Shown: piece after piece, positions 39,933-58,105 of the stretch
Numbering within the stretch: the first letter of the stretch is position 1
Layout: each line of letters opens with the position of its first letter
NCBI GenBank assembly: GCA_947480015.1
Contig: CANKBS010000012.1
Location: forward strand, 1-64,000
Reading direction: 5' to 3'
Length of the DNA stretch: 64,000 nucleotides
From: Sphingobacteriaceae bacterium
Lineage (GTDB): Bacteria > Bacteroidota > Bacteroidia > B-17B0 > Aurantibacillaceae
Notes under the pieces: model-generated
What the model saw: the letters and a program-made list of their open reading frames with translations, nothing else
Database searches by the model: none
What the model was told of the DNA's origin: nothing
Position numbers and translations under genes: made by a program

Positions 39933-40430
39933 TCAATCGGGACTTTTGGTATAAAAACTATTCTCCAGTAAAATTTCTTTGAGACGTTTGTTGATGATGC
40001 TGATGTTTATTTTGTTGGCAGGTAATTCGCTGACCCCATTGACAAAGGTTTTTAATTCATAAGCCGGCTGGACTTTATCGCCGGGGTAACGTTCTTCCTT
40101 CAAAATAAAAAGCGATTCGTATTTATAACCTTTAATGTAAACCAGTTTAACCAGACTATCATTGGGACCGGCCTGAATCTGCGCATTTTCTACTTGCAGC
40201 GAGAGCAGGGCTTTTAAAGAATCGGGAACGATGAGAAAAAACAGATCACCTTTATTTTTGAGAATACTATCGCTTTTAAAGCCTTTTTGAAAAAAGTAAA
40301 TGGCGTTTTTATCTTTTTTTAGTTTAATGGTTTCTACCTTTTGCGCTTCGGAAACAGAAGCAGTAAAAAAAACAAACAACAACAGATATGTAATAACAGG
40401 GCTTTTCACAAGAATTGACAAGATAAACAT
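39933..40430 (-). CDS. Secreted protein of unknown function
   Basis: A 165-residue protein with a signal peptide (SPVITYLLLFVFFTASVSEA). The mature part (about 135 residues) is Lys-rich with strands such as VKLVYIKGYKYESLFILKEE; no family recognised. It converges with the PNP gene with a 4-bp gap. Confidence 0.75.
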   Translation of the reverse strand: MFILSILVKSPVITYLLLFVFFTASVSEAQKVETIKLKKDKNAIYFFQKGFKSDSILKNKGDLFFLIVPDSLKALLSLQVENAQIQAGPNDSLVKLVYIKGYKYESLFILKEERYPGDKVQPAYELKTFVNGVSELPANKINISIINKRLKEILLENSFYTKSPD

Positions 40431-40523
40431 TTTTTGGAAGAGCCTTGGATGATGAGGCTGAATGTTGGATTTCTAATGCAATTTTTTATCCTTAACTTAG
40501 ATTGAGCAAATATCTAAACAATT

Positions 40524-41741
40524 GTGAAGCCCCAAACCAGCATACGCATTTTTCCTTTCAAACTGCTTTGTTGCTTTTTCTTTTTGATTTGCTCTTCTGT
40601 TTTTGATGCTCAAGTAAATTTAGTGCCTAATCCGAGTTTTGAGATTTATAAGGCATGTCCATCCTTTCCAAATACCGTTGACTCCGTGCCTCCATGGCGT
40701 GGGACAAACTTCGATTCCGATTATTACAATGCCTGTGGCCTTGGAGGTGCAAATGTTCCGAATACAACTGGTGGATACCAAATGGCAAGAACTGGAAGTG
40801 GGTTTGCGGGGCAGTACTTTTATAATGGAATAAACATTAATTACAGGGAATATATTCAAGTTTTGCTAAAAGGCCAATTACAAGCGAATTCATGTTATTT
40901 AGTAAAATGGTTCGTGAATAGTCCTAATTTATTTGCGAAGTATAGTTGCAATAATATTGGAGCGTACCTTTCCCAAAATAGTTTTACTAATGTTGCCCCT
41001 CCCTTGACAGCTAATGTTGTTAGTGTTAATCCGCAGATATTAGCGTATGGGAATCCTATTATTTTTGACACACTAAATTGGAAAGAGATTGGAGGAGTCT
41101 TTATGGCTAATGGAGGAGAAAAGTACTTGACTATTGGGAATTTTAGAAATGATGCTAGTACTGATACGCTTGATAAAAATCTTGGGATTTACGCAGGCGC
41201 ATACTACTTCATCGACGATGTTTCTGTTGAGCAAATTTCTTCTCCCACTTGGTTGCGCGATACCATGATAAATGCGGGTGACAGCGTGTTTATTGGTTCC
41301 AATTACGGTGGCTTAGCTTGCTCATGGTATAATTTAACTGCGCAGTTAATTTCAACTAAACCCGGCTTCTTTGTAAAACCAAGTACCAATACAAAATATG
41401 TGGTGCATCAAAGTTTTTGCGGGGGAACTTTTGTAGATACAATTGAAGTGAAAGTCAATCATAATTTGGTGGGTTTAAAAAACTATTCAGCTCTGCTTAG
41501 TAAATTACTACTCTACCCGCAACCGGCAGCTGCTGAGCTTAGTGTTAGTGGGCTGGATGGGGCTTTCAAAACAATTCGGGTTTATGATGCCTTTGGAAAT
41601 CTGCTCAGGGAAATTTATCCGGAGCCGAAAGAAAAATTGATCATACTAAATACCACTGAATTTAGTTCAGGTATTTATTCTTTGCTTTTTGAAGATGCGC
41701 AACAAAACAGAATGAGTCGGTGCTTTATTATTGAAAGGTGA
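40524..41741 (+). CDS. Secreted protein with T9SS type A C-terminal sorting domain
   Basis: A 405-residue extracellular protein. The signal peptide (FPFKLLCCFFFLICSSVFDA) is followed by a NLVPNPSFEIYKACP segment, a common start of carbohydrate-binding-like jelly-roll domains in Bacteroidota. The C-terminus (YPQPAAAELSVSGLDGAFKT, then IRVYDAFGNLLREI and FSSGIYSLLF) is a type A T9SS sorting domain, so it is exported by PorSS and attached to the surface. The start is GTG 40524. The repeat cluster begins 9 bp after the stop. Confidence 0.88.
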   Translation: MKPQTSIRIFPFKLLCCFFFLICSSVFDAQVNLVPNPSFEIYKACPSFPNTVDSVPPWRGTNFDSDYYNACGLGGANVPNTTGGYQMARTGSGFAGQYFYNGININYREYIQVLLKGQLQANSCYLVKWFVNSPNLFAKYSCNNIGAYLSQNSFTNVAPPLTANVVSVNPQILAYGNPIIFDTLNWKEIGGVFMANGGEKYLTIGNFRNDASTDTLDKNLGIYAGAYYFIDDVSVEQISSPTWLRDTMINAGDSVFIGSNYGGLACSWYNLTAQLISTKPGFFVKPSTNTKYVVHQSFCGGTFVDTIEVKVNHNLVGLKNYSALLSKLLLYPQPAAAELSVSGLDGAFKTIRVYDAFGNLLREIYPEPKEKLIILNTTEFSSGIYSLLFEDAQQNRMSRCFIIER

Positions 41742-41749
41742 TGGGGCTT

Positions 41750-42099
41750 GTCATGGTTCGACAAGCTCACCATGACACACTCACAATTACAAGCTCACCA
41801 TGACATGTTAGTTAAATGCACTTAGGATGCCCAAGGATGTCATCCTGAGCCTGTCGAAGGATGGCTCTGCCTGTCATGGTTCGATGCTTCGACGGGCTCA
41901 GCACAAACAGCTCACCATGACACACTCACAATTACAAGCTCACCATGACATGTTAGTTAAATGCACTTAGGATGCCCAAGGATGTCATCCTGAGCCTGTC
42001 GAAGGATGGCACTGGCTGTCATGGTTCTATGCTTCCTTATCATGGTTCGACAAGCTCACCATGACTTAGTAGTGGTCATCCTGAGCCTGTCGAAGGATG
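41750..42099. repeat. Palindromic element cluster 1 (core GAGCYTGTCGA)
   Basis: Full copies with stem CATCCT/AGGATG (flanked by GT): 41839-41863, 41984-42008, 42075-42099. Full copies with stem CATGGT/ACCATG in opposite orientation: 41750-41776 and 42040-42065. A longer hybrid lies at 41873-41922 and half-copies at 41789-41804 and 41934-41949. Neighbouring elements face each other, as BIME-type REP pairs do. The last copy contains the stop codon of the GIY-YIG gene. Confidence 0.9.
41766..42035. repeat. Direct 145-bp tandem duplication
   Basis: Bases 41766-41890 recur at 41911-42035 with three mismatches in 125, a period of 145 bp. The unit carries one full CATCCT-type palindrome and two half elements, so the duplication probably occurred by slippage or recombination between copies. 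Confidence 0.9.
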
Positions 42100-42402
42100 G
42101 TCTTCCGAAGAAGGAAACCTTACCTTATAGTTTTTTGATAGTTCAACCAAAGCCTCATAATTCCCTAAAATCAAAGCCTCCTTTTTTTTACGAGACCAAC
42201 CTTTCAATTGTTTTTCCCTGGCAATAGCTGCTAAATTATTTTCAATTATTTCGAAGTATACCAACTCTAAAGGCCTTCGTGAATAAGTATAACAGGTTGG
42301 ATTCAAACCCTCTTCATGTTGGGATAGCCTAGAATTAACATCATTGCTAACACCAATATAATAGCTATCGTCTGAACATTTAAGTATATAAACATAAAGC
42401 AT
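42076..42402 (-). CDS. GIY-YIG nuclease family protein embedded in palindromic repeats
   Basis: A 108-residue protein of the UPF0213-type GIY-YIG fold: YVYILKCSDDSYYIGVSNDV (variant GIY ... YIG), the catalytic Arg in VNSRLSQHEEG, and a conserved AREKQLKGWSR. It is probably a DNA-cleaving or structure-specific nuclease. Its last nine codons (DHPSTGSG and a TGA stop) are encoded by a repeat palindrome (42075-42099). The coding body has no repeat sequence; palindromes lie on both sides (cluster 1 and cluster 2). Whether it acts on these repeats is unknown. Confidence 0.88.
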   Translation of the reverse strand: MLYVYILKCSDDSYYIGVSNDVNSRLSQHEEGLNPTCYTYSRRPLELVYFEIIENNLAAIAREKQLKGWSRKKKEALILGNYEALVELSKNYKVRFPSSEDHPSTGSG

Positions 42403-42486
42403 GATTAAAATTAAATAAAATCATGTATTGCTTTTTTTGTTGTGATTTTTATTCGCGTAGATTTTTTTCACGTAACATTATTGAGT

Positions 42487-42705
42487 CATGGTTCTATGGT
42501 TCGATGGTAGATGCTTCCCTTGTCATGGTTCGACAGGCTCACCATGACCTATTAGTCGTCATCCTGAGCCTGTCGAAGGATGGCTCTGCCTGTCATGGTT
42601 CGACAAGCTCACCATGACAAGCTCACCATGACCTATTAGTCGTCATCCTGAGTAAGTTTAAGCTGAGCTTGGCCGATAGCTATCGGCCGAAGCATCGAAG
42701 GATGG
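42487..42705. repeat. Palindromic element cluster 2 (core GAGCYTGTCGA)
   Basis: Copies with stem CATGGT/ACCATG: 42522-42548 and 42592-42618. Stem CATCCT/AGGATG: 42558-42582 and, interrupted, 42642-42705. Half copies lie near 42487-42505 and 42616-42632. The interrupted copy has about 40 extra bases between its arms, including an 18-bp perfect palindrome (GGCCGATAG, CTATCGGCC). A stretch of 46 bp (42558-42603) is identical to 41839-41884 in cluster 1. Confidence 0.88.
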
Positions 42706-42726
42706 TGAAAGACAGCGAAGAAAGAA

Positions 42727-57833: not shown

Positions 57834-57891
57834 ACGTACGCTTTTGAACCACATAAGAAACAGAATAAGACACAACACTTATAGTTACTCT

Positions 57892-58063
57892 GTCATTCTG
57901 AGCCTGTCGAAGAATGGAAAGGAAAGTTCAAATGTTCAAGGAGGTTAGAGGGTTAAAACTAGTTCAAAACATTTCCTTCTCATTTACTCCCATGAAAGTC
58001 CTGAGTGCCGCCCTGAGCTTAGTCTTAGGGTGCCTTATGCATACCCTGAGCTTGTCGAAGGGT
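57892..58063. repeat. Palindromic element cluster 3 (core GAGCYTGTCGA)
   Basis: Copies with different stems: 57892-57916 (CATTCT/AGAATG, loop GAGCCTGTCGA) and 58043-58063 (ACCCT/AGGGT, loop GAGCTTGTCGA). 58011-58030 is a variant (CCCT/AGGG, loop GAGCTTAGTCTT). The three stems differ but each pairs perfectly, so complementarity rather than sequence is conserved. The stretch 57785-58118 holds these and the terminator. Confidence 0.8.
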
Positions 58064-58105
58064 GGTTCAATTTGTGGGTTTGTTATTACATTCATAACGA
58101 ATGAC

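Follow-up and report, generated by a model that had tools for sequence, protein, structure and literature searches.

A small GIY-YIG nuclease gene in the 64,000-nucleotide stretch of a Sphingobacteriaceae genome analysed here (the window) ends inside a repeat palindrome and has repeat clusters on both sides (Table 1), as an earlier reading made from the sequence alone (the sequence-only reading) had correctly noted. Does the nuclease belong with these repeats, or do gene and repeats merely share a place in the genome?

The GIY-YIG gene and its repeat-made C-terminus

The only Pfam family matched by the window protein is PF01541, and no HUH Y1 transposase domain was detected using Pfam. The catalytic residues Y5, Y15, R25, H29 and E63 are intact and are invariant across 30 homologues. 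A search of NCBIfam gave no named family for this protein. The closest solved structures are the UPF0213 proteins 1zg2 and 1ywl, followed by SLX1, and the nearest folds to the predicted model are likewise UPF0213 proteins and the structure-specific nuclease SLX1. The separate DNA-binding domain of a free-standing homing endonuclease is lacking, as the 108 amino acids hold the catalytic domain and a short tail.

The codons from 42102 down to 42076 (GAC CAT CCT TCG ACA GGC TCA GGA TGA) encode DHPSTGSG and the stop. Apart from the D codon and the final stop base, all of this lies within the palindrome 42077-42099. The proposal that the tail comes from the palindrome thus needs a small correction: the palindrome does contribute, but so does the adjoining tag. 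Read along the gene, the hairpin finishes with TGAC, complementary to its GTCA tag, and so provides the TGA stop, which belongs to this TGAC/GTCA tag. It had also been suspected that other GIY-YIG genes carry tails translated from such repeats, and we found this in 12 genes, in which the downstream core starts exactly 19 nt before the end of the open reading frame (ORF) and the stop junction is identical. In other close relatives (e.g., L271), the stop lies just before the hairpin. Most likely, the tail is a side effect of the downstream hairpin overlying the stop codon, because close relatives stop before the hairpin, the tail has low confidence in the structural model and the stop derives from the conserved GTCA/TGAC tag. 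A functional repeat-made tail is unlikely, given the homologues that end before the hairpin and the low-confidence model of the tail.

Table 1 Features of the window around the GIY-YIG gene, with the further hairpin copies
Feature	Position	Strand	Details or basis
Interval missing in relatives	40431..42726		Also contains T9SS-type gene 40524-41741
Flanking repeat clusters	41750-42101 (3' side of gene), 42485-42706 (5' side)		
Outermost tagged hairpin, downstream cluster	41750..41777	-	
Two 127-bp units, 145 bp apart	41764..42035		98% identical; one tagged hairpin each (41838-41865, 41983-42010)
Doublet 3' of gene, direct repeat of the 5' doublet	42035..42100 (5' doublet 42518..42583)		66 bp, 92% identity
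Second hairpin of downstream doublet	42039..42066	-	aGTC-ATGG-TGAGCTTGTCGAA-CCAT
Tagged hairpin downstream of gene, head away from gene	42074..42101	+	gGTC-ATCC-TGAGCCTGTCGAA-GGAT
Single-domain GIY-YIG nuclease gene, 108 aa	42076..42402	-	Pfam PF01541, E 1.2e-18
Repeat-encoded C-terminus DHPSTGSG and stop	42076..42102	-	Sequence; same junction in 12 homologues; low pLDDT
Nearest tagged hairpin upstream of gene, head away from gene	42522..42549	-	
Tagged hairpin, head-to-head partner of 42522-42549	42557..42584	+	cGTC tag
Further tagged hairpin upstream of gene	42592..42619	-	
Degenerate hairpin remnant, edge of upstream cluster	42640..42706		Sequence
Two more hairpin copies, without GIY-YIG gene	57891..58066		57891-57918 (tagged); 58039-58066

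Anatomy and copies of the tagged hairpin

The hairpins follow the consensus (T/C)GTC-A-NNN-TGAGC-N-TCGAA-N'N'N', in which a fixed asymmetric core is enclosed by a variable self-complementary stem and tagged on one side. Among the 197 hairpins around GIY-YIG genes that have a stem of at least 3 bp, GTC precedes the core by exactly 7 nt on 142 head sides versus 18 tail sides (about 3 expected), and the base preceding this tag is T in 118 and C in 14. The first stem base is almost always A and the second is G (52), C (50) or T (39). In 65 cores of this genome, a trailing A is invariant around the fixed core and the stems are complementary via differing sequences (CATCC/GGATG, CATGG/CCATG, CATGC/GCATG and CACCC/GGGTG). 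The stem positions are paired at 0.91, 0.88, 0.88 and 0.77. The window-type hairpin has a shorter outer stem and a short inner stem with a GA bulge, and the canonical form occurs at homologous Rhizobiales and Neisseria loci. Neighbouring hairpins form inverted doublets, often head-to-head and many of them spaced 33-37 nt, and of the 61 genes with a core on both sides, 42 have their nearest hairpins oriented heads-outwards.

Nine of the 11 hairpins in the window carry the GTC tag. The exact hairpin 23-mer is present in four copies around the gene and once more with two mismatches at 57894 (none in shuffled sequences). Across the 3.77-Mb genome, the core TTCGACARGCTCA has 58 exact copies in about 25 clusters and 88 matches with at most one mismatch, versus 4 for a reversed-pattern control. 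Most hairpin clusters of the genome have no GIY-YIG gene, and using tblastn no GIY-YIG remnants were detected in 20 other hairpin regions. The second wide gap between hairpins of the genome (L223, contig C11 57011-57501) is repeat-rich and has no GIY-YIG remnant.

The second standalone GIY-YIG gene of the genome (L002, contig C39) has a different, longer CGTC-tagged repeat in both flanks, which is found in 20 copies with at most one mismatch, several of them at contig ends. Both standalone GIY-YIG genes of this genome are therefore repeat-flanked, each by its own repeat. The sole RAYT gene of the genome (L005, contig C37) has unrelated palindromic repeats of its own.

GIY-YIG genes are paired with flanking repeats across genomes

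For every GIY-YIG gene, we compared the 400 bp to its left with the 400 bp to its right, and other genes in these loci served as controls. Repeats shared by the two flanks were found at 34 of 44 GIY-YIG genes of the order versus 0 of 185 neighbouring genes, and in genomes taken phylum-wide at 22/25 versus 3/42. A scan of 85,000 species genomes, which reached Nitrospirota, Nitrospinota, Chloroflexi, Actinobacteria, Spirochaetes and others, gave 57/74 versus 13/208, and records of a plasmid collection 9/14 versus 4/19. The pattern TTCGN3-7GCTCR was present in both flanks of 44 of 74 GIY-YIG genes and of a single control out of 208, itself within a GIY-YIG locus. The enrichment of repeats at GIY-YIG genes that had been conjectured from this locus is thus borne out, and the association of nuclease and hairpin is systematic. 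About a fifth of the GIY-YIG genes have no detectable two-sided repeat.

At the level of whole genomes, each of the nine Bacteroidota genomes that reach 19 or more core copies carries a clade-A nuclease (the clade of the window gene, see below), compared with 45 of 80 overall. This co-occurrence is only moderate (p about 0.004 for 80 Bacteroidota genomes, without correction for phylogeny).

Some records of the plasmid collection, such as L285 and L297, are megabase-sized and look like mislabelled chromosomes. On a Planktothrix plasmid (L301), the GIY-YIG gene lies between an MmeI-type restriction gene and the DISARM gene drmA, with a 51-bp direct match between its flanks.

Nuclease clade predicts repeat core type

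A tree of 55 GIY-YIG proteins of the order has two clades (support 100/99). Clade A contains the window gene and the hairpin-flanked genes, and clade B the genes that adjoin tRNAs. Within clade A and its relatives, nearest-relative nucleases share a core class in 0.865 of cases versus 0.42 when permuted, so that the clade of the nuclease predicts the core type of the repeat. The concordance vanishes once the comparison is restricted to relatives of less than about 60-65% identity.

Gain, absence and duplication of the unit

The site of the window gene beside tatA lacks both a GIY-YIG gene and the core pattern in all 25 genus relatives in which tatA could be placed. In most of these the orthologue of ORF 39933-40430 directly follows tatA, so that the interval 40431-42726 is missing. 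As the interval gained here also includes a T9SS-type sorting-domain gene, the unit is not purely gene and hairpins. One of these relatives (L169) has a hairpin array at the tatA site without a GIY-YIG gene.

A second site, between aroQ and sua5, holds hairpin-gene-hairpin units in two relatives and hairpins without the gene in this genome; in 14 relatives it is a spacer of 11-240 bp that lacks both. Despite their different locations, the window unit and the two aroQ-sua5 units can be aligned through the gene and the 3' hairpin. It had been asked whether the gene and its flanking repeats are gained and lost together, and at both loci they are absent together from the same site in relatives. 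Relatives have empty sites at these two loci, yet the exact insertion points could not be aligned.

Similar copies of gene and flank also occur within single genomes (L264 and L265). Two or three GIY-YIG and flank-repeat copies lie within a few kb, about 79-99% identical, in L264, L265, L266 and L267, and can help to delimit the unit.

Relation to CGTC-tagged REPs and to housekeeping GIY-YIG proteins

CGTC-tagged REPs are multicopy intergenic hairpins of Bacteroidetes and other phyla, including the dRS3 repeats of Neisseria, that apparently lack a dedicated transposase and were found next to no RAYT gene (Di Nocera et al. 2013, PMC3733652). The window-type hairpins resemble them in several respects. 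They have an unpaired GTC tag at one end only (CGTC, often TGTC, in the REPs), A as first stem base, and an intergenic, multicopy nature with head-to-head dimers (58 exact cores; inverted neighbours at 33-37 nt). They differ in the stem, which has a two-base bulge. An invariant TGAGC/TCGAA core and an attached nuclease gene likewise set the window hairpin apart from the REPs as surveyed in 2013. Two further REP traits neither clearly match nor clearly differ: the 8-9 bp stem with a 4-5 nt loop, set against the outer and inner stems described above, and the A-T pairs at the first and second stem positions, set against a first base that is almost always A and a second that varies in the numbers given above.

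CGTC REPs flank GIY-YIG homologues in nine records, seven of them alphaproteobacterial and the others from Neisseria and Aeromonas. Two-sided CGTC- or TGTC-tagged hairpins were identified at GIY-YIG genes of Sinorhizobium meliloti, Shinella, Rhizobium, Neorhizobium, Sphingobium, Novosphingobium, Azospirillum, Aeromonas and Neisseria gonorrhoeae, where the flanking repeats are dRS3. Among the homologues L292 to L296, flanking hairpins are absent, weak or confined to one side.

The UPF0213 (YazA-YhbQ) housekeeping proteins have the same fold as the window protein and supply the nearest solved structures named above. Their genes lie in tight neighbourhoods without flanking repeats, unlike the window gene with its two-sided repeats and its empty sites in relatives, and on these grounds we rejected the window gene as a UPF0213 housekeeping member. 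No flanking CGTC REPs were detected at the housekeeping UPF0213 (yazA-type) genes of Bacillus and Salinivibrio; that of Listeria has one weak 6-of-7 match.

A probable REP-type element with its own nuclease, and the alternatives

Given the observed pairing with its orientation and clade specificity, and the gains or absences at individual sites, we consider it probable that the window gene encodes a nuclease dedicated to its own family of tagged REP hairpins, and that gene and hairpins form a small REP-type element; cutting and mobilisation are inferred. Hairpins flank the gene on both sides, pointing heads outwards and commonly arranged in head-to-head doublets. The enzyme may bind the hairpin as a single strand during replication, repair or DNA uptake. 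It would recognise the hairpin core and nick in or close to the GTC tag, with single strands as the probable substrate. The resulting break could allow hairpins to be copied or to insert at other sites, alone or together with the gene. Counting against this reading are the many hairpin clusters without a GIY-YIG gene, the GIY-YIG genes without two-sided repeats, the loss of core-type concordance among more distant nucleases, the T9SS-type gene in the gained interval and the only moderate co-occurrence across genomes.

The sequence-only reading had drawn an analogy to RAYT genes and REP elements. This fits the anatomy, since REPs and REPINs (REPtrons) likewise have inverted tagged hairpins around a gene and non-autonomous doublets elsewhere in the genome. 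It fails for the enzyme and the tag, as the window unit has no HUH/Y1 transposase and the tag is GTC, not GTAG.

A further comparison for the enzyme comes from the Ssn proteins, which Chenal and co-workers reportedly described in 2025 as site-specific single-stranded GIY-YIG nucleases acting on the NTS repeats of Neisseria. Ssn nucleases reportedly affect natural transformation, tuning it near repeats in the case of Ssn and NTS in Neisseria. By analogy, this family suggests that enzymes of the window type may cleave single-stranded repeat DNA. The window enzyme shares with Ssn a single GIY-YIG domain linked to a genomic repeat, an intact active site, and a cognate repeat both in the genome and around the gene. 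Unlike Ssn, it belongs to a divergent clade, has another repeat core, a repeat-made C-terminus and doublet-gene-doublet units, and its cutting is only inferred.

The nuclease could recognise the hairpins and have as its main job the processing of incoming or replicating single-stranded DNA, for example, tuning natural transformation near repeats, with the spread of repeats a side effect of recombination between them. This remains a serious alternative, though an unlikely one. It would give the same clade-specific pairing, and it agrees with a single-domain enzyme with intact active site and with the dRS3-type CGTC repeats around the N. gonorrhoeae homologue. However, the gene and repeats at sites that are empty in relatives and the duplicated units in one genome resemble an element in its own right.

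We regard it as quite improbable that another enzyme, RAYT or some other transposase, moves the hairpins and that the GIY-YIG gene is a passenger. RAYT genes are present in this genome and in many relatives, but among 21 RAYT loci of the same genus none has this hairpin in both flanks, and seven are flanked by different repeats of their own. Moreover, the genus members G004 and G014 have no RAYT match and their GIY-YIG genes still lie between repeats, and CGTC REPs were at no RAYT gene in the survey of Di Nocera et al. (2013, PMC3733652). RAYT as the mover of these hairpins was discarded on the 0/21 count.

The least plausible explanation, that dispensable small genes and repeats gather neutrally in the same tolerant intergenic sites, draws on both being intergenic and dispensable and on the two-sided repeats of some other genes (the 13/208 above), but is made unlikely, and was rejected, on the basis of the far lower rates at neighbouring genes of the same loci and the two-sided heads-out orientation, with the clade-matched core types and the recurrence across phyla also against it.

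A possible wider nuclease superfamily and the tRNA-linked sister clade

The enzyme behind the CGTC-tagged REPs was not identified in the 2013 survey, and our data name one nuclease family as their partner in several phyla and with matched core types. This GIY-YIG family is the strongest candidate for the enzyme that this widespread class of bacterial repeats has lacked. Going beyond the window gene being the nuclease of its own hairpins, we put forward tentatively, and with slightly less than even confidence, that single-domain GIY-YIG nucleases are the mobility enzymes of a CGTC-tagged REP superfamily independent of RAYT, each clade having its own core and the sister clade targeting the tRNA T-arm. 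If this is true, a single nuclease superfamily would have left behind a large share of the most common short repeat DNA in bacteria, from Neisseria dRS3 to the repeats of Bacteroidota and rhizobia. There would then be a second kind of REP system, independent of RAYT, and sequence-specific nucleases whose targets can be read from the sequence would be readily available. As each gene has its presumed substrate adjoining, the nuclease question is directly testable.

In the order, 12 of 44 GIY-YIG genes are adjacent to a tRNA versus 5 of 185 controls. The clade-B genes lie just downstream of the tRNA and in the same direction. In most of 11 clade-B loci (L035, L045, L055, L056, L058-L061, L063, L067 and L074), a copy of the tRNA 3' end is found beyond the gene; it starts in or near the T-arm and often comes with a terminator. 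The likeness of the T-arm (a 5-bp stem, then TTCGA) to the hairpin may be chance. Near-identical clade-B genes are found at the tRNA-Met (L058) and tRNA-Arg (L059) of a single genome, G004, a pair that looks like a recent move.
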